A DNA stretch of 38,617 nucleotides from a virus: positions 1 through 38,617 of IMG/VR virus record IMGVR_UViG_3300042731_009261; one strand, given 5' to 3'. Under the pieces are notes generated by a model that saw nothing but the letters and a program-made list of their open reading frames with translations, was not told the DNA's origin and made no database searches. Positions 8,300-37,072 of the stretch are shown in pieces. Position 1 is the first letter of the stretch, and the number at the start of each line of letters is the position of its first letter. The translations under genes were made by a program, and so were the position numbers.

Positions 8300-8602
8300 A
8301 TGTCTGTCATAGATAAAATTGATAAAATTTTGGATGAGAAGAAAATGTCCTTTAAAGAGGCTCTTGATAAGCTTAAGAAAGAAAAAGATTTATCAACGGC
8401 TATGTTAGAACCATTGGGAATTGGAATGGATAGCTTTTTAAGATTTGCTCAATTACCTGATGCTCAACGTAAAAAACTTGTTGATAAGATGATAAAAGGG
8501 TTTAGTATGTATACAGATAAGGACATGATGAGCAAAAGCTCAAAAGAAAGAGTTGCAATGTGGAAGAAGATAAAAAATGAGAGTAAAGAATTATGGATAT
8601 AG
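8300..8602 (+). CDS. Leader-bearing internal protein candidate
   Basis: A 100-residue protein with GGGGG at 8288-8292 before the ATG. The N-terminus, MSVIDKIDKILDEK, is the leader shared by many small proteins in this window; I read it as a capsid-targeting peptide with a possible cut after ILDE. The rest is an all-helical, Lys-rich body (SFKEALDKLKKEKDLS, then LIKG-like helices) without a known fold. It shares TAATG with the upstream gene and overlaps the next by 10 bases, so it is made together with other leader proteins. Packaging inside the head is an inference from the leader. Confidence 0.65.
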   Translation: MSVIDKIDKILDEKKMSFKEALDKLKKEKDLSTAMLEPLGIGMDSFLRFAQLPDAQRKKLVDKMIKGFSMYTDKDMMSKSSKERVAMWKKIKNESKELWI

Positions 8603-9084
8603 TAGATAGAATAGATAAATTTCTCACTGATACCACAGTAGCGGCAGATGTAGCAACTAATACGGCTAAAGGTAAAATAGATGTTATTGGTGGTGAATGT
8701 CCTAAAGGAACTGTTTATGATAAAATTAAAAAGGTTTGTGTTCCTATAAATAATGAAGGATATGTTTATGTTTATAATAGTAAGAAAAATAAGAGAATTC
8801 GAATTTCTGATGATCCTGAAATAATAGAAAAATATAAGAAAAAGGGATTTGTTGTTGAAGCTTCTGTAGTTGGTGCAACTTATGTTTCTGGTAATTCTAA
8901 TATAGCAGGTTCAGGACAAACTAGGATTTGGGGGGAGAGATTTGGATGGATGGTTGATCTTAATAGAAAAGAACCTGTTAATATAGAAATGGATGATAAA
9001 GCTCAACAGAATATTATCGGCAGATTGGGATTAAAGTTTAGTGAATTTTTAGGTGCTTATGTTCCTAAAGGAGAAACAGGATGA
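8593..9084 (+). CDS. Leader-bearing protein with CP-x-G...CVP motif
   Basis: A 163-residue protein starting MDIVDRIDKFLTDTT, the shared leader but without a clear L-x-E end. Residues 35-51 hold CPKGTVYDKIKKVCVP, the same two-Cys motif as the interrupted end of the protein at 7590. It could form a small disulfide or metal-bound hairpin. The remainder (YVYVYNSKKNKRIRISDDPE and RIWGERFGWMVDLNR) is beta-rich and unrecognised. The start overlaps the previous gene and the stop overlaps the next ATG (ATGA), so translation is coupled. The function beyond likely virion association is unknown. Confidence 0.65.
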   Translation: MDIVDRIDKFLTDTTVAADVATNTAKGKIDVIGGECPKGTVYDKIKKVCVPINNEGYVYVYNSKKNKRIRISDDPEIIEKYKKKGFVVEASVVGATYVSGNSNIAGSGQTRIWGERFGWMVDLNRKEPVNIEMDDKAQQNIIGRLGLKFSEFLGAYVPKGETG

Positions 9085-9632
9085 GTAGAATAGATAAATA
9101 TTTAAATAATGGTAAGGTTAAGACAGGAGATGTTACTGTTTTAGAAAAATTAGAAGTTGAGGAAAAACTTCAAGAAACACTTGAATATCTTTATGATGAT
9201 GAGTTGAGTGAAAAGGCAATTGAAGCGGCAGGATGGGGAAAGGATTCAGTTGAAAAATTTGGGAAGACCATCGGAAAGAGTCCTTCAGAGGAAGGATTTT
9301 TTGATGCTTGTGTTTCTAGAATGTCACCTAAGAAAGGATGGGGAAAAGAAAAGGCTAAAGGATTTTGTGCGAGATTGATTGATACTGCAAAGGGAACAAC
9401 TGAATGGAGAGGTAAAAAAGTCCATGAGGTAAGAATTATACAACCAAATGAAAAAGCAAAAGATGAAGATGGTAGACTCATAAGACCGGGAGATATAGTT
9501 ACTCATCCAAGATTTGGAAAAGGTCAGATTTATTCTATAGATACAAAAACATATTCTATTCCAATGGTAACTGTAGAATTTGGAAAAGATAAAATAGTAA
9601 GACCATCAAATGAATTAAGAAAAAGAGGATAA
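9081..9632 (+). CDS. Leader-bearing protein with C-terminal Tudor-like/CarD-like domain
   Basis: A 183-residue protein starting MSRIDKYLNNGK (short form of the shared leader). The middle part has an acidic helix and then FFDACVSRMSPKKGWGKEKA and GFCARLIDTAKGTTEWRGK, a Cys/Trp block I have seen described only in uncharacterised phage proteins. Residues about 135-180, GDIVTHPRFGKGQIYSIDTK and VTVEFGKDKIVRPSNEL, match the small barrel found at the UvrD/PcrA C-terminus and in CarD, which contacts RNA polymerase. A role in binding host polymerase or DNA early in infection is possible if the protein is injected (inference). Confidence 0.6.
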   Translation: MSRIDKYLNNGKVKTGDVTVLEKLEVEEKLQETLEYLYDDELSEKAIEAAGWGKDSVEKFGKTIGKSPSEEGFFDACVSRMSPKKGWGKEKAKGFCARLIDTAKGTTEWRGKKVHEVRIIQPNEKAKDEDGRLIRPGDIVTHPRFGKGQIYSIDTKTYSIPMVTVEFGKDKIVRPSNELRKRG

Positions 9633-10151
9633 ATGAAAAAAACTTTATTAGAAGCACTTGAGTTAATGCCTGAAGCTACTGTAAGTAGGGGATATCCTGA
9701 TGATGGAACAGGTGTTGCGGGTGACGATGATAGACCACCAGGAAATATTGTCTATGGTGAGAAGTATAAAAGGACTCCTTATTTCAATAAATTAACTAGT
9801 TTTCAGAAAAATTGGGAAGTTGATTTAGGTGATTGGTCATGGGATGAGTTTGAACATTCTCAAGGAATGGAAGATTTTGCTAACTATTCAAATACTATCA
9901 ATAGTATGAGAGATTTGTTTCCTGAAAAGACATGGAATAATATGTGGAAACGTATGAAACATGTTCCTGATGATTTGACAACATTAAGATTTAAACAAGC
10001 AGGACAACCTTGGAGAAAAGGTGGTAAAGATCAATTAGGTGTGGATAAAGAGACCCATGTTGATGTTGAGACTGATAAAGACGGTGATTTTAAAGATGCT
10101 AAAATTAAGAATGAGGAATTGTTAAAGAAAATTGATGATTTCACCCTTTAA
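9633..10151 (+). CDS. Leader-bearing protein, unknown body
   Basis: A 172-residue protein that starts one base after the previous stop. The N-terminus MKKTLLEALELMPEATVSRG has two (L/I)-x-E-like sites (TLLE/A and ELMPE/A). The sequence after the second, ATVSRGYPDDGTG, resembles TIAANDYPDNPSK after the possible site in the protein at 36776, so mature N-termini may be related. The body has W-rich segments (KNWEVDLGDWSWDEFEHSQG, KTWNNMWKRMKHV) and an acidic C-terminus. No known domain is recognised. It overlaps the following Cys-rich protein by 17 bases. Confidence 0.6.
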   Translation: MKKTLLEALELMPEATVSRGYPDDGTGVAGDDDRPPGNIVYGEKYKRTPYFNKLTSFQKNWEVDLGDWSWDEFEHSQGMEDFANYSNTINSMRDLFPEKTWNNMWKRMKHVPDDLTTLRFKQAGQPWRKGGKDQLGVDKETHVDVETDKDGDFKDAKIKNEELLKKIDDFTL

Positions 10152-10323
10152 CTGTATTAAATGTAAAAATTATTGGGAAGATTTAAAGCTTTGTAAAAAA
10201 TTCGATATATACATTTTTGAAAAAAAATTTGAAAAAATACAAACAGATGAATGTTTGAGTGAAATAGAAGAAGAATATAATAATTTGTGGGATAATATAA
10301 CTAGGAGGAATATGTATGAATAA
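10135..10323 (+). CDS. Small Cys-rich protein, possible zinc knuckle
   Basis: A 62-residue protein starting at the ATG at 10135 (a TTG one codon earlier is less likely). The N-terminal NCIKCKNYWEDLKLCKKFD has C-x2-C-x8-C and a later Cys at KIQTDECLSE, so a zinc site is plausible. The remainder is helical and acidic. Such short Cys proteins are common between phage genes and often bind nucleic acid or protein partners. No family is recognised. It overlaps the end of the previous gene and the start of the metallophosphoesterase gene, which has its own AGGAGG ribosome site at 10304-10309 inside this one. Confidence 0.5.
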   Translation: MISPFNCIKCKNYWEDLKLCKKFDIYIFEKKFEKIQTDECLSEIEEEYNNLWDNITRRNMYE

Positions 10324-11620
10324 AGCGGAAATAATTAGAGAGTCATATTATGATAATCCCGATTTTGATAGAAAAAAATTAGCAAATAAGCTTGATGTGG
10401 ATCAAGCATATATTAGAAAAGTTTTAAGACCTTTAAAGAAGAACATTATAGATCAAGGATATAAACCTTTAGAAGAAACAATAAGTTTTAATAAAACCTC
10501 AAAGAATAATGCCAAGTTAGACCTTCAATCATTAACAATCACAACATTAGAACAAGCTTTGCAAGTTGCTGAAGTTGATTTGACTCAATGGAAAGTTGAT
10601 AGATATCAAATCGGTTCATGGCAAGTTACGTTAAAGCTTAAAGAACCTACAGGAGAACAAGACTCTAAAGGAAATGAGATATATTTAAATAAACCAAAGA
10701 CGGTTACAATGTATAAGATTCAAGTTTGGTTGAAGAAATTACATAATATGGAGTGGGTGGAAGCTATTAGGTTATTGATTGATGATATACCGAAGCTTGA
10801 GACACCTAAGAAAAATTTTAATTTAGATGGAAACTATCTCTTAGAAGTTGCTTTGATGGACGTTCACTTTGGAATGTTGGCATGGGATAAAGAGACAGGT
10901 ATGGATTATGATATTGATATAGCTGAAGATTTATTTCTTTATGCTGTGCAAGACCTTTTAAGTAAGGCAGTTGGATATAAACCATCAAAAATTCTATTTC
11001 CATTCGGTAATGATTTCTTGCATATTGATGACCCAACAAATCAGACTCCAATGAACAGAAATCTATTAGATGCTGATTCAAGATTGATTAAAATTTATCA
11101 GAAGGCTAAAAAATCTGTAATTAAAGCAATTAATTATTGTAGAGAAGTTTCTCCTGTTCATGTGACATGGGTTCCCGGTAATCATGATCCAAATGTATCA
11201 TATTATATGTGTGATGCACTATCCGAAATATTTTCAGATGATAAGGATGTTTCAGTTGATATATCTCCTAAATGGAGAAAATATTATCCATTTGGTAAAT
11301 GTTTGGTTGCATATACTCATGGAATAGAAGAACCAATGAGAGACCTTCCATCTATTGTAGCAACGGAAGAACCTGAACTTTGGGGAAAATCGAAATATAG
11401 AGAAATACATATTGGTCATAAGCATAGAAAAATGCAAATGCATTGGGTTAATGTAGATACCATGCCTGGAACGGTAGTTAGAATGATACCTTCTATTGCA
11501 GGTACAGATCAATGGCATTATAAGAAGGGATATATAAAGTCTTATCATGCGGCTGAAGCTTATGTTTGGGATGCAAATCATGGTGTAATTGGTCAATTTA
11601 CATCATATGTTGATTATTAA
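10316..11620 (+). CDS. Calcineurin-like metallophosphoesterase with N-terminal helix-turn-helix
   Basis: A 434-residue protein with AGGAGG at 10304-10309. Residues 1-45 (NPDFDRKKLANKLDVDQAYI) look like a helix-turn-helix. Residues 180-370 carry the whole metallophosphoesterase series: D182-x-H184 (MDVHFG), G231-N-D233, G288-N-H-D291, H335 (AYTHG) and G367-H-K-H370. These bind two metal ions that hydrolyse phosphodiesters or phosphomonoesters. The order and spacing resemble SbcD/Mre11-like and phage-specific branches. Substrate candidates are DNA, RNA or nucleotides. An end-processing nuclease is possible but the capping domain is not evident. It is followed by a late promoter at 11624. Confidence 0.85.
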   Translation: MNKAEIIRESYYDNPDFDRKKLANKLDVDQAYIRKVLRPLKKNIIDQGYKPLEETISFNKTSKNNAKLDLQSLTITTLEQALQVAEVDLTQWKVDRYQIGSWQVTLKLKEPTGEQDSKGNEIYLNKPKTVTMYKIQVWLKKLHNMEWVEAIRLLIDDIPKLETPKKNFNLDGNYLLEVALMDVHFGMLAWDKETGMDYDIDIAEDLFLYAVQDLLSKAVGYKPSKILFPFGNDFLHIDDPTNQTPMNRNLLDADSRLIKIYQKAKKSVIKAINYCREVSPVHVTWVPGNHDPNVSYYMCDALSEIFSDDKDVSVDISPKWRKYYPFGKCLVAYTHGIEEPMRDLPSIVATEEPELWGKSKYREIHIGHKHRKMQMHWVNVDTMPGTVVRMIPSIAGTDQWHYKKGYIKSYHAAEAYVWDANHGVIGQFTSYVDY

Positions 11621-11623
11621 AAA

Positions 11624-11631
11624 TATAAATA
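11624..11631 (+). promoter_or_regulatory. T4-type late promoter (TATAAATA)
   Basis: TATAAATA begins three bases after the metallophosphoesterase stop and lies 17 bases before the next ATG (11649), with AGGAGAG at 11638-11644 as ribosome site. It is the same octamer as at four other plus-strand spacers. It would serve the genes from 11649 onward. Confidence 0.6.
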
Positions 11632-11648
11632 TGTTATAGGAGAGAATT

Positions 11649-12020
11649 ATGCCAAAAAATCAATTAGAAGTTTTTAGACAGAGATTAGAGCAACTTAAAG
11701 AACAAGGTGTTGATATTGATCCTGATAAGGTAACAGAGGAAATTATAAATCCTCAAATTCCTGAAGATACAAGTGATGAGGAAAGAAGGGAGAAGTTATA
11801 TAATTTAACAGTTCAAAAAGTTATTCAACTTCTTGATGATTTTAAAAATCATTATCAACCAAAGGGAAGAACTCTAAAGGTTATTATAAGAATTGAAAAG
11901 GAAAATTCTGCTGATGCATTTGGTGAAAAGTTTGTTTATGATGAAGACATAGAAGTTATTTCTATGATTGAAATAGGAACAAAAGGAAAATATGAAAAAG
12001 TAATACAGGGGGATAAATGA
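11649..12020 (+). CDS. Hypothetical protein
   Basis: A 123-residue protein with AGGAGAG before the ATG. The first half is helical and charged (NQLEVFRQRLEQLKEQGVDI), with a coiled-coil-like register. The second half, RTLKVIIRIEKEN and DIEVISMIEIGTKGKYEKV, is beta-rich. No known motif is seen. It ends in an ATGA overlap with the exported protein, so the two are translated together. The late promoter upstream suggests a virion or late-stage role. Confidence 0.6.
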   Translation: MPKNQLEVFRQRLEQLKEQGVDIDPDKVTEEIINPQIPEDTSDEERREKLYNLTVQKVIQLLDDFKNHYQPKGRTLKVIIRIEKENSADAFGEKFVYDEDIEVISMIEIGTKGKYEKVIQGDK

Positions 12021-12382
12021 AAAAAATAATACTACTTGTGGTTATAGTAATTTTTTTTATGAGTAGTATAGCTTTAGCAAAAAATCCTATTAAATGTACA
12101 ATGCCTAAAGATACTGTATTTGTTATGGTCAATATATATTATGGGCCTGTTGGTGTCATTGCTGCTGAAGATACTATAATTACAGTATTAGAGATAAAGG
12201 AAGGTATTGAAAATCCTGAAGACTCTACTAAAGTAAAGGATGTTGTTAGATTTTCTTTATCTTATGATAAACCGTCTATACAATGTTCAGATCATGGTAA
12301 AGATACATTTGAAATGTATGCACCTTATCTTGCTAGTGATGATGGATTGGTTTTTAAGGATAATTTAATAAATTGTAAATAA
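12017..12382 (+). CDS. Exported protein with signal peptide
   Basis: A 121-residue protein. MKKIILLVVIVIFFMSSIAL, then AK, is a classical Sec signal peptide: two Lys, a 16-residue hydrophobic core and a likely cut after ALA at about residue 21. The mature part has three cysteines (KCTM, QCSD, NCK) and a beta-rich pattern (TVFVMVNIYYGPVGVI, DVVRFSLSY), suggesting a small disulfide-bearing domain outside the cytoplasmic membrane. Phage exported proteins of this size often act in superinfection exclusion or lysis, but nothing here decides this. Confidence 0.65.
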   Translation: MKKIILLVVIVIFFMSSIALAKNPIKCTMPKDTVFVMVNIYYGPVGVIAAEDTIITVLEIKEGIENPEDSTKVKDVVRFSLSYDKPSIQCSDHGKDTFEMYAPYLASDDGLVFKDNLINCK

Positions 12383-12383
12383 T

Positions 12384-13475
12384 ATGGTTATAAAATCTAA
12401 ATATACGAAAAAAGAAATAAGAGATGAGTTAGTTTATATATCTGAAAGCAATCAGAATAAAGTATCTAATCAAATAATAGAAATAATATTATATCTTGAA
12501 GCACTATATTTGAATATTTTTATGGAAGATATAAGAAAAAGACAAGCAAGATTAGATAAATTATGGGTTGATGAAACAGGATTTTTAGCTATATGGAATG
12601 GTGATTTTTCATCATTATCAATGGGTTGTCAATCATGTCTAACTGATAAAGTTGACCATATAAGAAGTTCAACAAAATGTGATCAAAATTGCGTTTTTTG
12701 TTATTATTATCAGGGAGCTAGGATAGTAAGAGGATTAACAACGATTCATTATAACTTGGCAGGTGGTACATTAACTAAGGAAGAAGTTAAGTTAGCTATA
12801 AAGAGACAGACAGATAATATAAAAGCTATTGGATGGTTACAAAAAGAACCTCTAAATGATATACAAAAAATACCTGAAGTAATGAGTGCTGTAGCTGAAC
12901 AGGGTTTACATCAGTATTTATATACCAATGGGATTCATGCTACAGAAGAAAATTTGAAAATATTATCAGATAGTGGATTAAATGAGATTAGATTTAATTT
13001 ACAAGCAACAGATTTTTCAGAGAGAGTATTGAGACATTTGGAGATTGCTAGAGAATATATTTCAAAAGTTTGTATTGAAACTCCAATGTTTTCAAATACA
13101 TTTGAAAATTATAAGAAACATAAAAATAGAATACTTGATAGTGGTGTAGATCAAATAAATAGTCCTGAATTACAGTTAAATCTAACCAATTATCATTTTT
13201 TTACACAAGAAGGAATGTTATATAGACATAGAAAAGGATATGCATCTCCTGTATCTAGTAGACATTTGACATATGATTTAATGGAACTTGCTGAAAAGGA
13301 AGGATGGGATTTAATTATACATGATTGTTCGAATGATACAAAATTTTATAGAGGTACAAGACCTTCATTAGGATTTGGTGAAGTGGCTTATCAAACTTTT
13401 GGATTATTACCTATTCCTTCTTATATTTATTTACTTGATAATATATTTGATCAAGATGAATTTGAGGTTTTTTAA
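12384..13475 (+). CDS. Radical SAM enzyme
   Basis: A 363-residue protein starting one base after the previous stop. C99-x3-C103-x2-C106 (KCDQNCVFCYYYQ) is the radical SAM motif that binds a 4Fe-4S cluster and cleaves S-adenosylmethionine. C82 and C85 (GCQSC), upstream, could bind another metal. The following 150 residues (IGWLQKEPLNDIQKIPEVMS, QYLYTNGIHAT, GLNEIRFNLQA) look like the radical SAM barrel. The substrate is unknown. The gene shares TAATG with a protein that may be SPOUT-like, so RNA modification is one hypothesis. It is not a clear match to QueE, NrdG or other usual phage radical SAM enzymes. Confidence 0.85.
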   Translation: MVIKSKYTKKEIRDELVYISESNQNKVSNQIIEIILYLEALYLNIFMEDIRKRQARLDKLWVDETGFLAIWNGDFSSLSMGCQSCLTDKVDHIRSSTKCDQNCVFCYYYQGARIVRGLTTIHYNLAGGTLTKEEVKLAIKRQTDNIKAIGWLQKEPLNDIQKIPEVMSAVAEQGLHQYLYTNGIHATEENLKILSDSGLNEIRFNLQATDFSERVLRHLEIAREYISKVCIETPMFSNTFENYKKHKNRILDSGVDQINSPELQLNLTNYHFFTQEGMLYRHRKGYASPVSSRHLTYDLMELAEKEGWDLIIHDCSNDTKFYRGTRPSLGFGEVAYQTFGLLPIPSYIYLLDNIFDQDEFEVF

Positions 13476-15980: not shown

Positions 15981-15985
15981 AAAAA

Positions 15986-15993
15986 TATAAATA
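15986..15993 (+). promoter_or_regulatory. T4-type late promoter (TATAAATA)
   Basis: TATAAATA starts six bases after the end of the fibre-like gene and 40 bases before the ATG at 16026, in a 45-base spacer that also holds a TAGGAG ribosome site. Confidence 0.65.
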
Positions 15994-16025
15994 ATAATAG
16001 AATGTTTTGTGTGTAGGAGATAAAT

Positions 16026-16283: not shown

Positions 16284-16286
16284 ATA
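16279..16286 (+). promoter_or_regulatory. T4-type late promoter (TATAAATA)
   Basis: The octamer overlaps the end of the small gene and precedes the ATG at 16322 by 35 bases; AGGAGG at 16309-16314 is the ribosome site. Two late promoters within 300 bases suggest that the protein at 16322 needs high expression, as expected for an abundant virion part. Confidence 0.65.
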
Positions 16287-22711: not shown

Positions 22712-23173
22712 ATGAAGTTTAAGGATTGGACAGAAAAAAAAGAATTAGATGAAGGTATGGGGTTTGTTCAACAACTTGATACAAAGAAATCAAAACCATC
22801 ATCACAAAATACAAGAAAAGTTAATGAACCAAAAAACATAGAGAAAGCTTTAAAAAAATATGTTAAAGGTATTCAAGATATAGTTAATCAAGATTACAAG
22901 AAGAATTATACTAATTTGACTCCACCTGATATAATTTATAAGAAAGGTGGTAGATATTATAAAGTTATAAGAAAGGAAACATTTGGTTCTGGTCAAAGTG
23001 TTCATTCTTTCATTGATGCCAAAGAAGGGCCTGAATTTGGAAATATATATAAGGCAGCTTCATGGAGAGCACCTGCAAAAGGAGCAAGAGGAAATGTTTT
23101 TAGTCCTTCAAATGGAATGGAAGCTATAGGTCATAGGGGTTCTGTGTGGTATGCTAAAACTGGTAGAAGGTAA
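22712..23173 (+). CDS. Leader-bearing protein with conserved RGN motif domain
   Basis: A 153-residue protein with TAGGAGGG at 22701-22708. The N-terminus MKFKDWTEKKELDEG is a variant of the shared leader. The C-terminal domain, IIYKKGGRYYKVIRKETFGS then VHSFIDAKEG and ASWRAPAKGARGNVF, carries a motif (SW-x-APAK-x-ARGN) that recurs in small proteins of many large phages but has no known function to me. The gene ends at 23173; the next leader-bearing frame begins at that same base with ATT. Confidence 0.65.
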   Translation: MKFKDWTEKKELDEGMGFVQQLDTKKSKPSSQNTRKVNEPKNIEKALKKYVKGIQDIVNQDYKKNYTNLTPPDIIYKKGGRYYKVIRKETFGSGQSVHSFIDAKEGPEFGNIYKAASWRAPAKGARGNVFSPSNGMEAIGHRGSVWYAKTGRR

Positions 23174-23358
23174 TTAAATTTAAAGAATACTTATTAGAAG
23201 AAAAATATTCAGGTAGAGATTATTATTCTAAAAAATGGACTCATGATTGGTTAGTAATAAAAGCTGATACATGTGGAAATACAAAGGGTGAATATACCAT
23301 AAAAACAGATGATCAAGCTAAACAAGCGGCAATTGCATTTGCTAAAGATGTAGCATGA
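23173..23358 (+). CDS. Leader-bearing protein with apparent ATT start
   Basis: An open frame of 61 codons with no ATG, GTG or TTG. It begins ATT AAA TTT AAA GAA, giving (M)KFKEYLLEEKYSG. This matches the leaders MKFKKYLTEEN at 30570 and MKFKDWTEKKE at 22712. The ATT sits exactly where TAATG overlaps put the next start (TAA 23171-23173, ATT 23173-23175). The body WTHDWLVIKADTCGNTKGEY and TDDQAKQAAIAFAKDVA looks like a compact alpha/beta domain. Its 3' end overlaps the convergent uvsW-like gene by 46 bases. Either AUU is used as start, or an ATG has been lost, making it a pseudogene. Confidence 0.5.
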   Translation: MKFKEYLLEEKYSGRDYYSKKWTHDWLVIKADTCGNTKGEYTIKTDDQAKQAAIAFAKDVA

Positions 23359-27551: not shown

Positions 27552-27557
27552 TGTAAT

Positions 27558-30221
27558 ATTTTTAAGAATGTATATTATAATACAAGAGAATCAAAAATTT
27601 ATTTATGGGAGCAGATTAATGGAGAAAATCTTTTTGATAGAATAGATTGGACACCTTATGTTTTTACTCCATCAATTCCGCAAGAGTCTGATGCAAAGAC
27701 GATATTTAATGATCATGTCAGCAAACGTAAGTTCAATTCATATTATGATTATAAAAATTTTTTAAAAGATCATAAAAGTCCTAAAATTTTCGAGAATAAT
27801 GTAAGAAATGAAATTCAATTTTTAGCTGAAAGGTATTATGGTATTCCTGATGATGAGATGTATGTACCTAATCTTAAGGTTTATTATTTGGATATTGAAG
27901 TAATGCCTGATGAAGGGTTTCCTGATTTTAAAAAACCACAAGACCCTGTAATTCTTGCATCTATTAGAGATGGATTGACAGGTAAAACGATAACATTTGG
28001 ATATGATGTATTGAAAATGAGAGAATATTCAGGTGATATGGAAAATATGAGGTATATTCATTGTAAAAGTGAAGAAGACCTTCTAAGATACCTGTTCAAT
28101 TACATTCATAAATATCCTTGTGATGTTCTAAGTGGTTATAATATTTGGGCTTTTGATATACCTTATTTGGTTAATAGAGCTATAGTTTTGTGGGGTGAAG
28201 AAGAAGGTAGAAAAATGTATTCAAAAATGAGTCCTATCAATATTGTAAGTGTTTGGAAACAAAAACAATCTGATGATTTAAATATTGATATGGGTGGATT
28301 GACTATATTAGATTATTATAATGTATATAAATGGTATGGTAAGAATCTTGAAAGATATACTCTTGAATATGTTTCTCAGAAAGAATTGAAGAAAGGTAAA
28401 AAGAAGAATCCTTATGAATCTATGCAAGAGCAAGTTGAAAAAGATTGGAATGGATTTGTAGATTATAATGTTATTGACTGTGAATTAGTTAATGATCTTG
28501 AAAATACACTTGGGTATATTCGAATGATTCAGGCATTGAGTCTTTTATGTAAATCTCCTATGAAATACTATAATGCTCAGACACAACTTATTGAGGGATT
28601 GATGTTAACGTATTATAGGAGAAATGGTTTATGTGCTCCACATTTTTCAGGTGGTGAACAGAAACCTTTTACTGCGGCACATGTAAAACAACCTCAAAAA
28701 GGTTTACATGAATGGGTTGTTGATGTTGATATCACATCAAGTTATCCATCTCATATTATCACAATGAATATGTCTAATGAAACTTTCTTTGGTAAAATTA
28801 TAGTTTTAGATGAGAAGGAAATTATTGCATATACAAGGAAAAGAGAATTTCCACCATTTAAAATGTATAGGGAAATTAATGGAGAATGGGAAATTGTTTA
28901 TTTTGATAAAGATAAACTTAGTAAATTTAATCTTGCTTTGAGTAAAGGATTATTTGCAATAGCTCCATGTGGCTCTATTTTCACAACAAATAAACCGGGT
29001 GTTGTAGCATTAGTTGAAAAAAATGTATTTTTTAAAAGAAAAGAAGTTAAGGGTAAAAGATATGAAATGGGAATGAAGTCTAATGAATATGAGGAAAATA
29101 CTCCTGAACATAGGAAATATAAGGAGAGAGAAAGAGAACTTGATTCTTTACAGCTTGCTTTGAAAATTATGATGAATGCTTTTTTTGGAATATTATCAGT
29201 ACCTTATTCGAGATATTTCAATACATACATTGCAGAAGCTATAACGGCAGGTGGAAGACATACTATTAAATCAGGACAAAAATTTTGTAATGATCTATTG
29301 AATGATCCATCTCAAGATATTTTAGCTTTATTTGCAGGAGATGGAAAGAAATTTACTCATAGAAAGGATTATGTTAAATACATTGATACGGATTCATTGT
29401 TTGTTGGTTTGGGAGAATGGATTCAAGATCAAGGATTTCAGGCTGAATGGGAAAAGTTACCTGATGAGGATAAGATTGAGTGGATTAAAAAGATATCAGG
29501 TATAATGGAAAAATACATTGATGATAGAATTTTCAAAGAGGTTCAGTTAGGGGATTATAACTCCCAAATTCATGATTTTAAGATAGGGTTCAAACAGGAA
29601 ATTATTGCCAAGACAGCTTTATTTGTCAAAAAGAAAAAATATGCCTATTGGTTACTTGATAAAGAGGGTGTTCCAAAGGATGAGATTAAAGTTACTGGTC
29701 TTGAAATTGTTCGTTCTGAATCTGCTGAAGCTATCAGACCAAGATTGAAAAATATCATGGAAATGATCATGAAGCAACGAAGTGATGAAAACATAAGCAA
29801 GACCATTAGGATATATAAAAAAGAGCTAAGTAAGCTAACTCCTGAAGAATTAGCGGCTAATATAGGGGTTAATGGTATTAAAAAATATCTTAGAACAGGT
29901 ACACCCCTAAAAGGTACACCTTGGCATGTTAAAGGTGTTTATAATTATAGACTTTTATTAAAAGAACTTGGTATACAGGATAAATATGAGGATATTCATG
30001 AAGGGCTGAAGGCAAAGGTTGTTTATGTAAAAAAGAATCCTTATAATGTGGAAACGATAACATTTCATGAATGGCCTAGTGAGTTTAATGATATAGTTCA
30101 ATTTGATTCACATCAAATGATTGATAAATTTTTTATAAAGAAGGTTCGATTGTTACTTGAACCTATTAATAAAGAAAGCATTATTGATAGTGACATGAGT
30201 GCTGTTAAAGCTTTCTTCTAA
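27558..30221 (+). CDS. Family-B DNA polymerase (T4 gp43-like), apparent ATT start
   Basis: The frame is open from 27540 with no ATG, GTG or TTG until 27858, yet the stretch before 27858 is clearly polymerase N-terminus (NVYYNTRESKIYLWEQINGE, DWTPYVFTPS). ATT at 27558, 6 bases after GGGGAAGG, gives 887 residues (T4 gp43 is 898). From this start, exo I YYLDIEV has D112 and E114, the T4 numbers. Exo II is GYNIWAFDIPYL, exo III DYNVIDCELV, polymerase motif A DITSSYPS (D391), motif B KIMMNAFFGI, motif C YIDTDSLF. Both proofreading and polymerase sites are intact. It replicates the phage genome. Its 3' end overlaps the convergent gene at 30205 by 17 bases. Confidence 0.9.
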   Translation: MFKNVYYNTRESKIYLWEQINGENLFDRIDWTPYVFTPSIPQESDAKTIFNDHVSKRKFNSYYDYKNFLKDHKSPKIFENNVRNEIQFLAERYYGIPDDEMYVPNLKVYYLDIEVMPDEGFPDFKKPQDPVILASIRDGLTGKTITFGYDVLKMREYSGDMENMRYIHCKSEEDLLRYLFNYIHKYPCDVLSGYNIWAFDIPYLVNRAIVLWGEEEGRKMYSKMSPINIVSVWKQKQSDDLNIDMGGLTILDYYNVYKWYGKNLERYTLEYVSQKELKKGKKKNPYESMQEQVEKDWNGFVDYNVIDCELVNDLENTLGYIRMIQALSLLCKSPMKYYNAQTQLIEGLMLTYYRRNGLCAPHFSGGEQKPFTAAHVKQPQKGLHEWVVDVDITSSYPSHIITMNMSNETFFGKIIVLDEKEIIAYTRKREFPPFKMYREINGEWEIVYFDKDKLSKFNLALSKGLFAIAPCGSIFTTNKPGVVALVEKNVFFKRKEVKGKRYEMGMKSNEYEENTPEHRKYKERERELDSLQLALKIMMNAFFGILSVPYSRYFNTYIAEAITAGGRHTIKSGQKFCNDLLNDPSQDILALFAGDGKKFTHRKDYVKYIDTDSLFVGLGEWIQDQGFQAEWEKLPDEDKIEWIKKISGIMEKYIDDRIFKEVQLGDYNSQIHDFKIGFKQEIIAKTALFVKKKKYAYWLLDKEGVPKDEIKVTGLEIVRSESAEAIRPRLKNIMEMIMKQRSDENISKTIRIYKKELSKLTPEELAANIGVNGIKKYLRTGTPLKGTPWHVKGVYNYRLLLKELGIQDKYEDIHEGLKAKVVYVKKNPYNVETITFHEWPSEFNDIVQFDSHQMIDKFFIKKVRLLLEPINKESIIDSDMSAVKAFF

Positions 30222-30570
30222 AATAATTTACGAGTTTACTTTCTTTTTGTGCTTCATCATCTTTAGGTGGTGGAGCACTTTCAGGTGGTGGTTCTTCCTG
30301 TTGTTCAGGTGGTGGTTCATATTTTGTTTTTGTTGGTTTAGTTTCTTTATCAACATTACTCCATTTCTTTTTCTTATCTCTTAAATCTTGAACTATAGCA
30401 TCATTAGTTTCATTTTCTTCTTTATTTTTCATTGCTTCAAGAGCTTTGTTGATTAATTCAAGATATCTTTTTACCTTTTCAGGTGGATATTCTCCACCTA
30501 CTTCTGGTTCTGGTAAGGCCAATGCTTTAGATATAACATTTTCTTCTGTAAGATATTTTTTAAATTTCAT
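30205..30570 (-). CDS. Leader-bearing protein with Pro/Glu-rich tail
   Basis: A 121-residue protein starting MKFKKYLTEENVIS (leader, possible cut after YLTE/E). The middle has PPEKVKRYLELINKALEAMK, and the C-terminal half is low-complexity, KYEPPPEQQEEPPPESAPPP, ending LVNYFRRKL. The proline repeats show as CAGGTGGTGGTTC direct repeats in the plus strand (30284-30315). The unstructured tail fits a packaged scaffold or core-type protein (inference). It is last in the minus-strand transcript and ends inside the polymerase gene's 3' end. Confidence 0.6.
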   Translation of the reverse strand: MKFKKYLTEENVISKALALPEPEVGGEYPPEKVKRYLELINKALEAMKNKEENETNDAIVQDLRDKKKKWSNVDKETKPTKTKYEPPPEQQEEPPPESAPPPKDDEAQKESKLVNYFRRKL

Positions 30571-30792
30571 TTAATTTTTTTTCCTAATTTCAAGAGTAGC
30601 ATGATAGTCTTTATATTGTTTGTTATAGAAATCAATTGCATCCTTAACAAACTTAAAATTTTTGAAATCTTTCATTGTTTCCATAAATTTTTTAGTATCT
30701 AAAGTAGTGATTGTTTTTCCTGTTTTTTTATCTATTACTTTTACAAAATCCTCTAATTTTGCTTCACCTAAATATTTATCTATTAAAGTCAT
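30571..30792 (-). CDS. Leader-bearing small protein
   Basis: A 73-residue protein starting MTLIDKYLGEAKLEDFVKVI, with the (L)-G-E/A site typical of the leader family. The body is a Lys/Phe-rich helical region (FMETMKDFKNFKFVKDAIDF) and a short strand at the end. It starts ten bases after the stop of the zinc-ribbon leader gene, with AGGAGAAATTAA upstream of the ATG, and ends just before the next gene. No family is recognised. Confidence 0.6.
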   Translation of the reverse strand: MTLIDKYLGEAKLEDFVKVIDKKTGKTITTLDTKKFMETMKDFKNFKFVKDAIDFYNKQYKDYHATLEIRKKN

Positions 30793-30802
30793 TTAATTTC
30801 TC

Positions 30803-30988
30803 CTAAACTGGTTCTGTATCATATCCTTTACATTTCGGGCATTTGACCTCAAAGGTATTTTTACCTAATTTCTTTTTGAATTTATGACCACACTCCATGC
30901 ATTCCATTTGGGTTGAGGATGAGTGTTTTCTTGTCATTGCTCCCCCCCAAGATTTTGCTTCACCTAAATATTTTTTTATTAAATCCAT
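30803..30988 (-). CDS. Leader-bearing zinc-ribbon protein
   Basis: A 61-residue protein. MDLIKKYLGEAKSWGGA is a leader with L-G-E/A, followed by MECMECGHKFKKKLG and EVKCPKCKGYDTEPV, two C-x2-C pairs that form a zinc ribbon. If cut after LGE the mature protein is about 50 residues, almost only the ribbon. It could bind nucleic acid or a host protein after injection (inference). GGGGGAAAA lies upstream of the ATG. Confidence 0.65.
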   Translation of the reverse strand: MDLIKKYLGEAKSWGGAMTRKHSSSTQMECMECGHKFKKKLGKNTFEVKCPKCKGYDTEPV

Positions 30989-30999
30989 TTTTCCCCCAT

Positions 31000-31395: not shown

Positions 31396-31407
31396 TTTAT
31401 TTCTCCT

Positions 31408-31722: not shown

Positions 31723-31727
31723 TTTTC

Positions 31728-32839: not shown

Positions 32840-32869
32840 TTTTAAACTTCCCCCTTTGGTTTTATTTTC

Positions 32870-33400
32870 CTACATATTTAATGTAGGTTGACACGTTTTT
32901 TTATCTTCATCATTTATTATGGTATCTTTCATAGATTCAATCATGGTTCTATCATATTCTATAATATCTTTATAATAGTCTCTGATTGAGTCCATAGTTA
33001 CCATAATTGGATTACGGTCTTTTCGTAATCCAAAACTGAAAGACCAATTGTATTCACTATTTATATGGGAGTTAAACCAATGAACCATAATAGGTTCTCC
33101 CATCATTGGTTTTATATGATTTCTAAATTCTTTATATTTAGTCCAATCTTCTTCTCCATCAGCTATCTTTTTATGGACAATTTTAACAGTTTTTATTTCA
33201 TCTTCTATTAAAAAATCAATCCAGCACCGTCCAATAATATCTTTATAAGTTAGAAATCCAAGAGTTTTTGCTAAACTATTGTTTGTATATTTAATTATCA
33301 TTTCTTCATTTAAAACAAGTACAAACATATTTGCATAATTTAGCATATTGAATATTGTTCTTCTTAATTTTCTATTTTCATTTTTTAATGATTCTGACAT
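32870..33400 (-). CDS. PAS-domain protein
   Basis: A 176-residue protein starting at the ATG at 33400 (MSESLKNENRKLRR), with AGGAGT upstream; the frame is open to 33493 but only inside the previous gene. Residues about 20-125 have the PAS pattern: MLNYANMFVLVLNEEMIIKY, TNNSLAKTLGF, DIIGRCWIDFLIEDE and WSFSFGLRK at the end of the sheet. PAS domains sense redox, light or ligands or mediate dimer contacts. No kinase, GGDEF or DNA-binding output is attached. A PAS domain in a phage lysis-like operon is unusual and could be a timing sensor (inference). Confidence 0.65.
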   Translation of the reverse strand: MSESLKNENRKLRRTIFNMLNYANMFVLVLNEEMIIKYTNNSLAKTLGFLTYKDIIGRCWIDFLIEDEIKTVKIVHKKIADGEEDWTKYKEFRNHIKPMMGEPIMVHWFNSHINSEYNWSFSFGLRKDRNPIMVTMDSIRDYYKDIIEYDRTMIESMKDTIINDEDKKTCQPTLNM

Positions 33401-33411
33401 AATTTTTACTC

Positions 33412-33798
33412 CTATGGTATTATTGGCAATTGAGTTATTAGAGCTACAACAATTGCTATTATTCCCACAATTATACTTCCCATTCCTACCCATCCAACAT
33501 GGATTTTATTTGCTAATTTTCCATGTGTTTTTATAGATTCAATATTATGATCATGGAGTTCTTTATGATGATCAGCACTTGATCCAATAACTGAATCTAA
33601 TTTATTTGTTATAGATTTTAAATGTATACATGTGGAATTTTGTTTGGTTGATATTATATCTTGTTTAGTCGTTATACTATCTAATTTTTCAATTGTTTTA
33701 GTACTTTGTTCTAGTATTGTTTGATGGTATTCTATCATATTTCTATAGCTTTCCATTAGCAACATTAGATCATCTTTTGTTAAATTATCTTCAGGCAT
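33412..33798 (-). CDS. XhlA-like coiled-coil membrane protein
   Basis: A 128-residue protein starting with MPEDNLTKDD and AGGATTTATTC upstream of the ATG. Residues 10-85 are a long coiled-coil-like helix (YHQTILEQSTKTIEKLDSIT onward). Residues 103-124 (WVGMGSIIVGIIAIVVALIT) are one membrane helix near the C-terminus. A coiled coil followed by a C-terminal membrane anchor is the layout of XhlA-type lysis proteins. It is the first gene after the minus-strand late promoter, so the operon starts here. Confidence 0.6.
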   Translation of the reverse strand: MPEDNLTKDDLMLLMESYRNMIEYHQTILEQSTKTIEKLDSITTKQDIISTKQNSTCIHLKSITNKLDSVIGSSADHHKELHDHNIESIKTHGKLANKIHVGWVGMGSIIVGIIAIVVALITQLPIIP

Positions 33799-33834
33799 GA
33801 ATAAATCCTCATTTATTGAAAAAGTTTCTAATAG

Positions 33835-33842
33835 TATTTATA
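33835..33842 (-). promoter_or_regulatory. T4-type late promoter, minus strand
   Basis: Reading the minus strand, TATAAATACTATT occupies 33842 to 33830, a close match to the T4 late consensus, 36 bases before the ATG at 33798 and with AGGA ahead of it. It serves the lysis-like cassette. It faces the plus-strand element at 33861 in a 78-base spacer. Confidence 0.75.
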
Positions 33843-33860
33843 AAAATTTATCTAAAAAAA

Positions 33861-33868
33861 TATAAATA
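33861..33868 (+). promoter_or_regulatory. T4-type late promoter, plus strand
   Basis: TATAAATA precedes the ATG at 33877 by only 8 bases, so a transcript starting at the usual distance would begin within a base or two of the ATG. It would serve the leader-protein and virion genes to the right. Paired with the minus-strand element 19 bases to the left, it forms a divergent late promoter. Confidence 0.65.
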
Positions 33869-33876
33869 TTAGTGAT

Positions 33877-34083
33877 ATGAAACAACTTTTAGGAAAAATA
33901 GATGAATATTTAAGAATACAGGAAGAAAAAGATGCTATTGATGTATCTTTATATTCCAAAAAAGAGTTAACAGATATTATTGAATTAGTTAGAAATTCAG
34001 ATGATATTGAAAAAACTCTTTCTTTTTTCAATTCTGAAGTTAAAGAACAGATTAAAAAATTAATTGAGGGTGGAATAATATGA
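33877..34083 (+). CDS. Leader-bearing small protein
   Basis: A 68-residue protein. MKQLLGKIDEYLRIQEEKDA is a leader variant (K-I-D-E-Y-L-x-x-Q-E). The body is acidic and helical (KKELTDIIELVRNSDDIEKT, EQIKKLIEGGII). No SD is visible, and the late -10 box ends 8 bases before the ATG, so the message may be leaderless. Its stop TGA overlaps the next ATG (ATGA). Confidence 0.6.
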   Translation: MKQLLGKIDEYLRIQEEKDAIDVSLYSKKELTDIIELVRNSDDIEKTLSFFNSEVKEQIKKLIEGGII

Positions 34084-34568
34084 ATAAAAGAAAATTAAGA
34101 CAACATTTATTAGAGGGGAAGACACCAAAAAAGAAAAATAGTAAAATGTTAGGAAAACTTCATGAGCTTGATGATAAAATTGAAGATTTTATTGATAACT
34201 TAGAAGAAGAAATTATGAAAACAGAAGATAATCCTATGTTCATTAAGAAGGCTACACAACTTTTAGCTGATATGAGCAAAGAATATTCTGAATTTATTGT
34301 TGCTTTGAGAGCAATAGTCAATGCAGTTGATCGAAAAGAAAGGATTCTTCCTATGTTTGATAAAACAGAAAGCAGAGTTCGAGATGTTAGAGATGGAGCA
34401 GGAAATGGCTCACCGGGTTCAGAAGAAGCTCCACCTGAAGAAGAAGCTCCACCTGAAGAAGAAGCTCCACCTGAAGAAGAAGATGAGGATGAGAACAATG
34501 TTGATGTTGAATTAAAAGTTAAAGGTGGAAACAAGAAAAAGAAACCTTCTAAGAAAAAAAAGGGTTAA
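34080..34568 (+). CDS. Core/scaffold-like protein with acidic repeat and basic tail
   Basis: A 162-residue protein with GAGGGTGGAA upstream. MNKRKLRQHLLEGKTPKKK is a leader-like basic start with LLEG. The helical middle (MLGKLHELDDKIEDFIDNLE to IVNAVDRKERILPMFDKTES) precedes three EEAPPE repeats, an EEDEDENN acidic stretch and a Lys-rich end. The charge layout (helix, acid, base) resembles prohead core or scaffold proteins of T4-like phages, but I cannot assign a gene number. It shares ATGA with the preceding gene. Confidence 0.6.
   Translation: MNKRKLRQHLLEGKTPKKKNSKMLGKLHELDDKIEDFIDNLEEEIMKTEDNPMFIKKATQLLADMSKEYSEFIVALRAIVNAVDRKERILPMFDKTESRVRDVRDGAGNGSPGSEEAPPEEEAPPEEEAPPEEEDEDENNVDVELKVKGGNKKKKPSKKKKG
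34422..34475 (+). repeat. Three tandem 18-base repeats encoding EEAPPE
   Basis: GAAGAAGCTCCACCTGAA occurs three times without a break (34422-34439, 34440-34457, 34458-34475), identical at every base. Perfect identity suggests recent slippage expansion. The repeat codes for an acidic proline linker. Confidence 0.9.
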
Positions 34569-34574
34569 GGAAGT

Positions 34575-35021
34575 ATGGAATTATTTGATAAAATAAATGA
34601 AATTCTTGAACAAGAAGATAAGGTATTACCTAAAGATACAACTAAGGTAAAGGCTGAATGGACTTTTGACGAAAAGTTATTCAATAAAATGGCTAACTTT
34701 ATTATCAATTTAGACCCTGATAAATTAACTGATTCTCAATTAGAAGGAGTTATAAATATGATTGATAATCTTGAAATGGAAATCCAAGAACTTCAGGAAA
34801 AAAGACTTGCCCAAAAGACAAAGCTTTCTAAGAATCAATATTCGAAAAAATGGTATAGGGCAAATAAAACTGAAATTAAAAGGCGTAAAGAAAAATTTAA
34901 AAGAAGCTCAGAAGGTAGAAAAAGAATTAAAATGAAAAAAAGAAATGATAGAATTGGAAGGACTGCTACAGGCAGATCAAAATTGGAATATAATAAGAGA
35001 GTAAGGAGTGATAGAAAATGA
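34575..35021 (+). CDS. Leader-bearing protein with basic C-terminus (pair member 1)
   Basis: A 148-residue protein with AAGGAAG upstream. MELFDKINEILEQEDKV is a leader (possible cut near ILEQE). The acidic helix block LFNKMANFIINLDPDKLTDS and VINMIDNLEMEIQEL matches the protein at 35299 (LMSRMFDFIMNLKSENLSED, TEIIEDLADEDISEI). Both then have a strongly basic tail: here KWYRANKTEIKRRKEKFKRS and GRTATGRSKLEYN. Such a tail should bind DNA. A packaged DNA-associated protein is inferred. The end overlaps the next start (ATGA). Confidence 0.65.
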   Translation: MELFDKINEILEQEDKVLPKDTTKVKAEWTFDEKLFNKMANFIINLDPDKLTDSQLEGVINMIDNLEMEIQELQEKRLAQKTKLSKNQYSKKWYRANKTEIKRRKEKFKRSSEGRKRIKMKKRNDRIGRTATGRSKLEYNKRVRSDRK

Positions 35022-35287
35022 AAATTTTAAATAAAATTGATACTCTATTGGATAAATTAAATGATAAGCTTTCCGAAAAAATTAGACTCCATGAAGCTAA
35101 AATGGGGGGGAAGGAATATGATGATTTTTTTAAAGAGATGTTAAAAAAATGGAAAGTTAAATCTTATAAAGATTTACCAAAAGATAAACAAAAGAAGTTC
35201 TTTGATGAGGTTGATAGGGAATGGGATTCTAAAGTTGAAAAAGGTGGTACAAGTAAGAAATATAAAAAGGGTTCAAGTAGTATATAA
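35018..35287 (+). CDS. Leader-bearing small protein with FF-x-x-V-D-x-x-W domain
   Basis: An 89-residue protein. MKILNKIDTLLDKLNDKLSE, then KIRLHEAKMGG, is an extended leader (LSE/K or LHEA). The body KEYDDFFKEMLKKWKVKSYK and KDKQKKFFDEVDREWDS is a two-helix motif (FF...W-x-V...L...KK-x-FF-x-x-V-D-x-x-W) that recurs in small proteins of T4-like phages without known role, in my recollection. The C-terminus is Lys/Ser-rich. It is coupled to the previous gene by ATGA. Confidence 0.6.
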   Translation: MKILNKIDTLLDKLNDKLSEKIRLHEAKMGGKEYDDFFKEMLKKWKVKSYKDLPKDKQKKFFDEVDREWDSKVEKGGTSKKYKKGSSSI

Positions 35288-35298
35288 AGGAGTAGGTT

Positions 35299-35733
35299 AT
35301 GAATATTACTGAAAAGTTAGATGATTATTTAAGTGAGAATGAAAAACTTGATGAGTTTCTACCTGATAAAGATATTGATCTTATGAGTAGAATGTTTGAT
35401 TTCATTATGAATCTTAAGTCAGAAAATCTTTCTGAGGATGAAATTGATGAGGTTACTGAAATAATAGAAGATTTGGCTGATGAGGATATTAGTGAGATTT
35501 TTGATGATGAAGATGAAGATGTTGATGAAGCTATATCAGCTAAGAAAGTTAAGATTAAGCCTTCTGATAAGCGTAAAAGACGTTTGGAATATAGGAGAAA
35601 TAGAGCAGCAATTAAGCTAAAAGCTAAAAAATTCAGAAGAACAACAAAGTACAAACAATGGAAAAGGATGAAAAAACGTAAAGCTACTTCTGGTAAAACA
35701 GCAAGAGGTAAGAGAATTAGGAAATTTTTATAA
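35299..35733 (+). CDS. Leader-bearing protein with basic C-terminus (pair member 2)
   Basis: A 144-residue protein with AAGGAG upstream. MNITEKLDDYLSENEKLDEF is a leader with YLSE/N. The acidic region continues to EDEDVDEAIS, followed by a basic tail RRLEYRRNRAAIKLKAKKFR and SGKTARGKRIRKFL. It is paralogous to the protein at 34575 along the whole length, although the leaders differ. A DNA-binding role in the head is inferred from the charge and leader. Its TAA overlaps an ATG (35733) that begins a short six-codon frame. Confidence 0.65.
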   Translation: MNITEKLDDYLSENEKLDEFLPDKDIDLMSRMFDFIMNLKSENLSEDEIDEVTEIIEDLADEDISEIFDDEDEDVDEAISAKKVKIKPSDKRKRRLEYRRNRAAIKLKAKKFRRTTKYKQWKRMKKRKATSGKTARGKRIRKFL

Positions 35734-35760
35734 TGGGGCCGAAACCTTTTTGATAAAGAC

Positions 35761-36207
35761 GTGATAAAAAAACACAAGCTAAACAGGAAGGATAAAGAAT
35801 ATATTCCTATGAACCCACATAAATATTGTGGGAGTTATCCTATTATTTGCAGATCAACTTGGGAACAAAGGATGTGTGGATGGTTTGACTTTAACAAAGA
35901 TGTTCTTGAATGGTCTAGTGAAGGTCACAGGATTAGATATATTGATCCAACGACAGGTAAAAACAGAATATATTATCCAGATTTTTATGTGATGTTTAAG
36001 AATCGCAAGAAATTCATTGTTGAAGTTAAACCACTTAAAGATATTCGAATGCCTAAGAGGGGAAAGAAAAGCCAACGGACTCTTATGATATATGAACAAA
36101 CTATTTCAATAAATCAGGCTAAGTTTAAAGCTGCGAAACAATATTGTAAAAAACTTGGTATGGAGTTTATTGTTTTAACGGAAAAAGATTTATTTAGGGG
36201 GAATTAA
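35761..36207 (+). CDS. Head completion protein (T4 gp4-like)
   Basis: A 148-residue protein from GTG 35761 (T4 gp4 is about 150). IPMNPHKYCGSYPIICRSTW, then E, then VLEWSSEGHRIRYIDPTTGK, IYYPDFYVMF, KKFIVEVKPLKDI and QAKFKAAKQYCKKLGMEFIV, LTEKDL. This is the gp4 family layout, with an endonuclease-like core (E...PDF...EVK) similar to TnsA-type nucleases. In T4 it acts after packaging to ready heads for tail joining. No ribosome site fits the GTG. An ATG at 35733, coupled as TAATG, reads MGPKPF then TGA, and a +1 shift on TTT-TGA-T joins it to this frame. So the real start may be 35733 (157 residues). Confidence 0.82.
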   Translation: MIKKHKLNRKDKEYIPMNPHKYCGSYPIICRSTWEQRMCGWFDFNKDVLEWSSEGHRIRYIDPTTGKNRIYYPDFYVMFKNRKKFIVEVKPLKDIRMPKRGKKSQRTLMIYEQTISINQAKFKAAKQYCKKLGMEFIVLTEKDLFRGN

Positions 36208-36208
36208 A

Positions 36209-36478
36209 ATGGATTTAGTTGATAAGTATTTAAATGAAGCTGAATTTATTGATTTGGATGATGCTAAGAAAAATATAGATGTGGCATTGAATTCCATTAC
36301 TACAATGGAAGATTGGTTGAACATGGTTAGAACTTTAATTATAAATGGAAAAAGAAATGATGCTATAAAAGTAGCATTGGCAATAAATAAAAAATCTGTT
36401 GTCTTTGCTAATACTGTAAAGAAAATACCTAATAGAAAAATAACTGATTTAAAATACAGAAGAACTAAAATGATATAG
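36209..36478 (+). CDS. Leader-bearing small protein
   Basis: An 89-residue protein with AGGGGG at 36196-36201 and the typical leader MDLVDKYLNEAEFID (L-N-E/A site). Residues 16-75 are helical (DAKKNIDVALNSITTMEDWL, NMVRTLIINGKRNDAIKVAL, AINKKSVVFANTVKKIP), ending in a basic patch KYRRTKMI. Its leader and that of the next gene share MDLVDKYL, so the leader may have spread by duplication while the bodies diverged. No fold is recognised. Confidence 0.65.
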   Translation: MDLVDKYLNEAEFIDLDDAKKNIDVALNSITTMEDWLNMVRTLIINGKRNDAIKVALAINKKSVVFANTVKKIPNRKITDLKYRRTKMI

Positions 36479-36488
36479 GAGAAATAAA

Positions 36489-36764
36489 ATGGATTTAGTA
36501 GATAAATATCTTGGGGAAAGTAGTATTAAACCTATAGGTAAACCACAACAAGTTATATATAATTATTTGGAAGCATTGGATAAAAATTATGGTCATCCCT
36601 ATAACATGGAAATAGATTTGAATCAAATTGCTAAACATCCTGATGCTAGGGGAATTCATTATGGAAAACTTCAAAATGCAGCAAAAGCTTTAGCTAAGAA
36701 AGGTTATATTGAATTTGATGGGTTTAATAAGATTATAGCATTTTTAAATCCAAAGTATAAATAA
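36489..36764 (+). CDS. Leader-bearing protein with winged-helix-like body
   Basis: A 91-residue protein with AGGAGAAAT upstream of the ATG. The leader is MDLVDKYLGESS (L-G-E/S). After it, QQVIYNYLEALDKNYGHPYN, IDLNQIAKHPDARGIHYGKL, QNAAKALAKKGYIEFDGFNK and IIAFLNP suggest helix-helix-helix-wing, as in small winged-helix DNA-binding domains. If injected it could act on host or phage promoters (inference). The TATAAATA at its last codons is probably chance. Confidence 0.6.
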   Translation: MDLVDKYLGESSIKPIGKPQQVIYNYLEALDKNYGHPYNMEIDLNQIAKHPDARGIHYGKLQNAAKALAKKGYIEFDGFNKIIAFLNPKYK

Positions 36765-36775
36765 GGAGAAAAAAG

Positions 36776-37072
36776 ATGGGAGATGAAATTTTAAAAAAAT
36801 TAGAATTATTTACCGAAACTATAGCTGCAAATGATTATCCTGATAATCCATCTAAATATGAAGGAATGAGACCTATTCAATTTATGACATGGTGGGGGGA
36901 TTTTCGACCAGGGGATAGAGTTGATGTAATGTTCGGTGAAGATTATATAAGTTTTGCAGGTACAAATGCTGAAGGTCACTTTGCAGGTGTGAAAAAAGAA
37001 GATGATCTTGAAGACCCTGATGAAATAGCAAGTTTTAAAAGTAGTGAAGGTAGAATTTGGAATTTTGTTTAA
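36776..37072 (+). CDS. Small protein, possible weak leader
   Basis: A 98-residue protein with AAGGAGAAAAAAG upstream. MGDEILKKLELFTETIAAND resembles the leader less closely (LELFTE/T). The next part, TIAANDYPDNPSKYEGMRPI, is like the region after the possible cut in the protein at 9633. The body (FMTWWGDFRPGDRVDVMFGE) has a small barrel pattern with GDRVDV. No family is recognised. Leader membership is uncertain. Confidence 0.5.
   Translation: MGDEILKKLELFTETIAANDYPDNPSKYEGMRPIQFMTWWGDFRPGDRVDVMFGEDYISFAGTNAEGHFAGVKKEDDLEDPDEIASFKSSEGRIWNFV

Follow-up and report, generated by a model that had tools for sequence, protein, structure and literature searches.

Leader proteins of the window

The window studied here is a complete IMG/VR contig of 38,617 bases (record IMGVR_UViG_3300042731_009261), a fragment of a T4-like phage genome, in which a series of small proteins start with variants of one N-terminal stretch, hereafter called the leader. 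All 17 proteins that a preliminary description had picked out for this shared start turned out to be open reading frames lying where it had placed them. The consensus of the leader is [FLIV]-x-x-[YF]-[LI]-x-E, followed by a predicted cut and then by Ala or Gly. Residues are numbered P1, P2 and so forth backwards from the cut, which is written as a slash, and genes are named by the lower of their two coordinates.

The leader was scored with a position weight matrix (PWM) built from 41 leaders taken solely from three relatives (contigs G001, G019 and G020), the window being left out of training. Eleven window proteins scored above 7, versus 0.45 expected from shuffled N-termini: 30571, 30803 and 30205 on the minus strand, and 36489, 36209, 9081, 8593, 8300, 34080, 35299 and 22712 on the plus strand. 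For each of these except 35299 and 22712, the shuffle p value was 0.0005, the floor of the test. When all window start codons with at least 19 open codons behind them were scanned, only two others scored above 7; each of them lies within another gene and lacks a match to the Shine-Dalgarno sequence. A T4-derived DNA pattern gave five matches in the window, versus 0.53 in shuffles, and four of the five were at leader starts. The leaders of 9633, 33877, 34575, 35018 and 36776 were not significant alone; orthologues of their bodies carry plainer ones (FDKYLSE/S, KIDNYLEVQE/K, VDNFLSE/P, RILEKIDNYLSE/E and KIGSFLDE/T). So, the shared leader is real, in eleven proteins by the PWM and in five more through orthologues, with 22712 doubtful.

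On the plus strand, the gene at 8300–8602 encodes a protein of 100 residues with no known domain (MSVIDKIDKILDE/KK; PWM 13.8). It is followed by 8593–9084 (163 residues; MDIVDRIDKFLTD/TT; PWM 14.5), with Asp at P1, and by 9081–9632 (183 residues in two domains; MSRIDKYLNN/GK; PWM 17.7), with Asn at P1. In the family of 8593, the window protein and three orthologues have Asp at P1; a fourth orthologue, whose leader was read from an internal Met, has Glu. The ending L-x-E proposed earlier holds in general, then, but not in these two proteins. The leader of 9633–10151 (172 residues; MKKTLLEALELMPE/AT) is weak, and FDKYLSE/S is that of its orthologue in the relative G024. The mean predicted local distance difference test (pLDDT) scores of the AlphaFold models were 45 for 9633 and 58 for 9081. 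The C-terminal tail of 9633, LLKKIDDFTL (10110–10148), resembles the leader core. An LLxKID tail is conserved at the C-terminus of this family (also at L147:15545–16387), and in G024 another domain comes after it; the tail may serve as a further docking peptide, at the C-terminus, or be left over from a gene fusion.

Also on the plus strand, the 153-residue protein at 22712–23173 (MKFKDWTEKKELDE/GM; PWM 7.1, p = 0.0065) matches DUF7717 (E=4.8e-16). It has no orthologue in the set, and its leader was kept as doubtful because the DUF7717 homologues in two other phages have none. The next frame, 23173–23358 (61 residues), contains no ATG, GTG or TTG. Its first codon is ATT, which overlaps the stop of 22712 as TAATT, and its translation starts with IKFKEYLLE/EKYSG, that is (M)KFKEYLLE/EK. 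The usual TAATG would supply an ATG here, so the ATT is a rare start codon unless it stems from an error of sequencing.

The three minus-strand genes are 30205–30570 (121 residues with a Pro-rich tail; MKFKKYLTE/EN; PWM 17.5), whose leader is retained in five orthologues, 30571–30792 (73 residues; MTLIDKYLGE/AK; PWM 25.5) and 30803–30988 (61 residues, zinc-ribbon-like body; MDLIKKYLGE/AK; PWM 24.1). The remaining genes are on the plus strand. A leader-like MKQLLGKIDEYLRIQE/EK starts the 68-residue protein at 33877–34083, whose orthologues have MEQLLGKIDNYLEVQE/KK and MKLLLEKIDGYLSIQE/KK. The protein at 34080–34568 (162 residues; MNKRKLRQHLLE/GK; PWM 12.6) has a Pro/Glu-rich segment and then a basic tail, and its G024 orthologue starts with MSHKFKDYLVE/GK. 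Basic tails are also present in the related paralogues 34575–35021 (148 residues; leader-like MELFDKINEILE/QE, with MDLFDKIDDILE/QE and MYDVLEQVDNFLSE/PI in orthologues) and 35299–35733 (144 residues; MNITEKLDDYLSE/NE), the latter being recognized by the PWM (8.3) and by a regular expression of the T4 positions. Between them, 35018–35287 (89 residues) has a leader-like MKILNKIDTLLDKLNDKLSEKIRLHE/AK, which is MRILEKIDNYLSE/ET in an orthologue. The leaders of 36209–36478 (89 residues; MDLVDKYLNE/AE; PWM 19.2) and 36489–36764 (91 residues; MDLVDKYLGE/SS; PWM 20.5) are followed by the weak MGDEILKKLELFTE/TI of 36776–37072 (98 residues), with KLDMFVSE/TY and KIGSFLDE/TT in orthologues.

The 16 leader proteins with an ATG start belong to 15 body families, and 76 bodies of a wider set belong to 61. 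The bodies in the window are of small size, and most have no known relatives. Of the body types first assigned to them, basic and Pro-rich tails can be read directly from the sequence, a zinc ribbon is likely though its Pfam hits are all weak, and the Tudor-like and winged-helix types were not confirmed.

Constraint on the leader and number of leader genes

Across the clade, 205 non-identical leader proteins were collected, with 115 body families and leaders of 9–15 residues. Among these 205, which were in part selected for the residues in question, Glu occupies P1 in 195, Leu or Ile P3 in 196 and Tyr or Phe P4 in 192, and P7 is nearly always hydrophobic. A less biased test of constraint was made on 155 orthologue pairs picked by the body alone, with a mean body identity of 70%. 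In these pairs, P1 was identical in 88%, and P7, P4 and P3 were conservative in 95, 94 and 88%, while P6, P5 and P2 were identical in just 26, 27 and 22%.

In a leader of 10 residues, P7, P4, P3 and P1 coincide exactly with residues 4, 7, 8 and 10 of the T4 capsid-targeting sequence (CTS). Mutagenesis of the T4 internal protein (IP) IPIII assigned targeting to residues 4 and 7 and processing to residues 8 and 10, Asp at residue 10 stopping the processing and leaving the targeting unaffected (PMC9026906). With T4 excluded from the training, the clade profile ranked ipIII fifth and ipII eighth among 295 T4 open reading frames. The likeness to a T4-type CTS that had been put forward from the window is therefore upheld, as the length, the spacing of the constrained residues and the L/I-x-E end all agree.

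Counts of leader open reading frames clearly exceeded those of a shuffled null in G024 (22 versus 2.3), G023 (23 versus 2.0), G022 (11 versus 1.2) and G025 (11 versus 0.6). In reference genomes, the regular expression of the T4 positions gave, versus the null, 5 and 0.8 in T4, 0 and 0.75 in HTVC008M, 3 and 1.7 in KVP40, and 6 and 0.65 in Campylobacter phage CP81. In 11 T4-like reference genomes, a 10-residue DNA pattern matched about once per 100 kb, versus about 10 times per 100 kb here, the relatives in this comparison having been partly picked for their leader. A near-complete relative has about 20 predicted leader genes, versus a handful in T4. Leaders of other clades may differ enough to escape this profile.

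Protease and head genes, proposed cargo and genomic context

The 107-kb relative G001 carries the same leaders on about 17–21 proteins, and a scan for the leader DNA pattern yielded further contigs, among them G019, in which the genes of the portal, an S77 protease of the gp21 type, a gp22-like scaffold and a gp23 capsid protein lie together. Identity between the G019 protease and T4 gp21 is 38%, and the GELxHP and SSRG motifs, which we take to hold the catalytic His and Ser, are both conserved in it. Proteases of this type were also found in G024, G025, G026 and G030. The core operon of G019 itself includes leader genes (MKIKKYLKE/A, MRFKEHLDE/A), and others lie between what are probably its terminase, neck and tail genes. 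The capsid protein of the relatives keeps L-M-E in the N-terminal region corresponding to the part removed from T4 gp23, and one core protein has an internal YLNE/AK, identical to a leader end. The 120-kb contig G024 combines a gp21-type protease with orthologues from eight of the leader families of the window (8593, 9081, 9633, 30205, 34080, 34575, 35018 and 35299); therefore, the protease and these families occur in one genome in this clade. A prohead protease gene elsewhere in the genome, on which the preliminary description had made its proposal depend, is thus present in relatives of the window.

That unlike bodies stand behind one leader was borne out, and domain swaps were found as well. 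The zinc-ribbon body of 30803 occurs in four architectures behind the leader, with the middle replaced or absent. The two domains of 9081 are found apart in relatives, each behind a leader, in a swap that involves G001 and another contig, L036 (position 3051). In L036, the leader is joined straight to the C-terminal domain, and the first domain is found elsewhere without the second. Longer proteins of G001 and G022 match the C-terminal part of 23173 at 79–82% identity, and the one in G001 starts without a clear leader. In a 510-residue protein of L036, a second, internal leader-like stretch is as expected if two leader genes had fused. This same protein has an HExxH motif, and its match to a toxin family is weak (E=0.0096, below the cut-off).

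Known domains behind leaders came mainly from the relatives. The CCA tRNA nucleotidyltransferase is recognized by Pfam PolyA_pol (E=5e-32), its best NCBIfam model being a CCA-adding one, scored below the cut-off of that model. The leader is on nearly all clade copies of this enzyme and is absent from those of Tunturi_5, Aeh1 and eugene 12A10. Further leader bodies are a RimK-like ligase with a protease-like domain, a C39-like cysteine protease, NUDIX, a deoxynucleotidase, kinase-like P-loop proteins and DnaJ, and several of these Pfam domains open no more than a few residues past the predicted cut. An RNA ligase starting with MLVQEYLKD was dropped as cargo, its orthologue reading MKTIAYLKS.

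Concerning the other genes of the window, a head-closure protein of the T4 gp4/gp50 type (35761–36207, plus strand; phrog_218, E=2.2e-43) sits amid the leader genes, and a DNA end protector of the T4 gp2 type (37084–37605, plus strand; phrog_429, E=1.8e-8) lies immediately 3′ of them. The window also encodes a PolB, whose nearest record is that of Pelagibacter phage HTVC008M (29% identity), a DnaB-like helicase, a gp47-like exonuclease and probably a UvsW-like helicase. The late promoter TATAAATA is over-represented near genes; it was not taken as support because the leader genes are no different from other genes in this respect. A host search returned one distant match and two short contigs (L174 and L175) binned in a metagenome-assembled genome of a Thermoplasmata archaeon; these two are helicase relatives (52–54% identity) and probably mis-binned phage contigs.

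Some further observations were made in passing. Methyltransferase-like, DegT-like aminotransferase and other transferase-like genes stand in a row at 1086–7533, perhaps for the modification of a surface glycan or of the virion. The protein at 12384–13475, amid structural genes, has a CxxxCxxC-type cluster (CDQNCVFCYYY) and is possibly a radical SAM enzyme. Long Ser-rich (Ser/Leu) repeats occur in predicted virion proteins at 37944–38617, within which the window terminates, and at L046:7362–8369. A short gp23-like piece of about 60 residues, perhaps a capsid gene fragment, lies beside DNA polymerase genes and away from the capsid module in the loci L039–L045 (contigs G003, G004, G008–G010, G014 and G016).

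Interpretation

It seems very probable that the shared N-terminus is a T4-type capsid-targeting propeptide, and that these phages have a strongly expanded, modular internal-protein system for loading varied cargo into the head. During head assembly, the leader would dock its carrier onto the gp22-type scaffold core through the hydrophobic or aromatic residues at P7 and P4, and the gp21-type protease would cut after (L/I)-x-E, freeing the mature protein inside the head. There the cargo would stay beside the DNA, most likely to be delivered at infection, and some of it would probably counter host defences or repair RNA. Scaffold docking, packaging and cleavage appear well supported by the comparisons described, and injection and anti-host action are plausible. 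The enzyme cargoes of the relatives would fit host take-over or repair equally as well as anti-defence.

Several points weigh against this interpretation. Packaging, trimming and injection are read from sequence. The window has neither a protease nor a capsid gene: it gave no capsid or protease family matches, and gp21 (PF03420) had no match in the window or its closest contigs. A few leaders, those of 8593 and 9081, are without Glu at P1. One family contributes 103 of the 155 orthologue pairs, and weighting each family once gives the same picture, weaker. Moreover, the weight matrix and the gene caller are both simple.

The alternative that survives best accepts the leader as a capsid-targeting propeptide and takes most carriers for parts of the prohead core or scaffold, like T4 gp67 and gp68, which would shape the head and be cut up instead of being delivered to the host. 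The two leader proteins encoded between gp21 and gp22 in G019 and the retention of several families across the clade speak for it, but the bodies vary greatly between relatives, with enzymes among them, and many leader genes are found elsewhere than in the core operon, so that we regard it as unlikely. Much less probable is a single duplicated family, in which the N-termini would be alike by descent, without a targeting role, and the bodies would have diverged. The paralogy of 34575 and 35299 and the adjacency of some leader genes would agree with it. It is already contradicted, however, by the leaders that precede unrelated known domains (NUDIX, C39, RimK, PolyA_pol and DnaJ), and also faces the homologues outside the clade that have no leader and the four positions that hold while the residues between them turn over fast. 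Finally, a nucleotide-level translation signal, or chance in an AT-rich genome rich in Lys, Ile, Leu and Glu, is scarcely credible: the composition does lift chance matches, and a lone weak member such as 22712 might be fortuitous, but residue-shuffled and dinucleotide-shuffled nulls yield far fewer matches, and the amino-acid class is conserved at fixed spacing with differing codons.

Returning to the capsid-targeting propeptide with head cargo, the principle of the leader tag is already known from T4, and the CTS was proposed earlier as a general loading device (PMC9026906). T4 packages three IPs and Alt, and Ip1–3 were recently found to block type IV restriction enzymes; at least 10 IPs have been reported overall in T4-related phages (PMC12373910). 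As in IPI, IPII, IPIII and Alt of T4, which carry a CTS cut by gp21, a propeptide of about 10 residues, with hydrophobic or aromatic targeting positions and an L/I-x-E end, precedes unrelated bodies here, and the clade has a gp21-type protease and a gp22-type scaffold. The differences from T4 are the number of leader genes, the many enzyme bodies, Tyr at P4, the length classes of 9 to 15 residues, the Asp-ended members and a different, uncultivated lineage. The giant phages SPN3US and phiKZ, with proteases of the gp245/gp175 type, likewise have several packaged proteins matured after Glu by a gp21-like protease, but their propeptides are mostly much longer, with the motif A-x-E or S-x-E (PMC5694885), and the short leaders described here, ending in L/I-x-E, do not fall in that class. 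In the open literature searched, there was no report of about 20 leaders per genome, of this clade, of so broad an enzyme cargo or of a natural Asp-ended class.

A more specific picture can be offered tentatively, as somewhat less likely to be right than wrong. The head would be preloaded with a kit of a couple of dozen proteins for tRNA 3′-end repair, NUDIX nucleotide clean-up, RimK protein modification, proteolysis and chaperone action, the cargo being swapped by domain fusion to one leader, and the proteins with Asp-ended leaders would be packaged uncut, as with Asp at position 10 in T4. The tagged tRNA nucleotidyltransferase in much of the clade suggests, as a hypothesis, virion-borne tRNA repair.

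If about 20 proteins in each genome are tagged throughout a T4-like clade, the leader would be a searchable signature for hundreds of head-packaged and probably injected proteins whose function is unknown, and its natural variants would be available for protein loading. It also allows a test of whether some phages carry repair enzymes in the virion instead of awaiting their expression.

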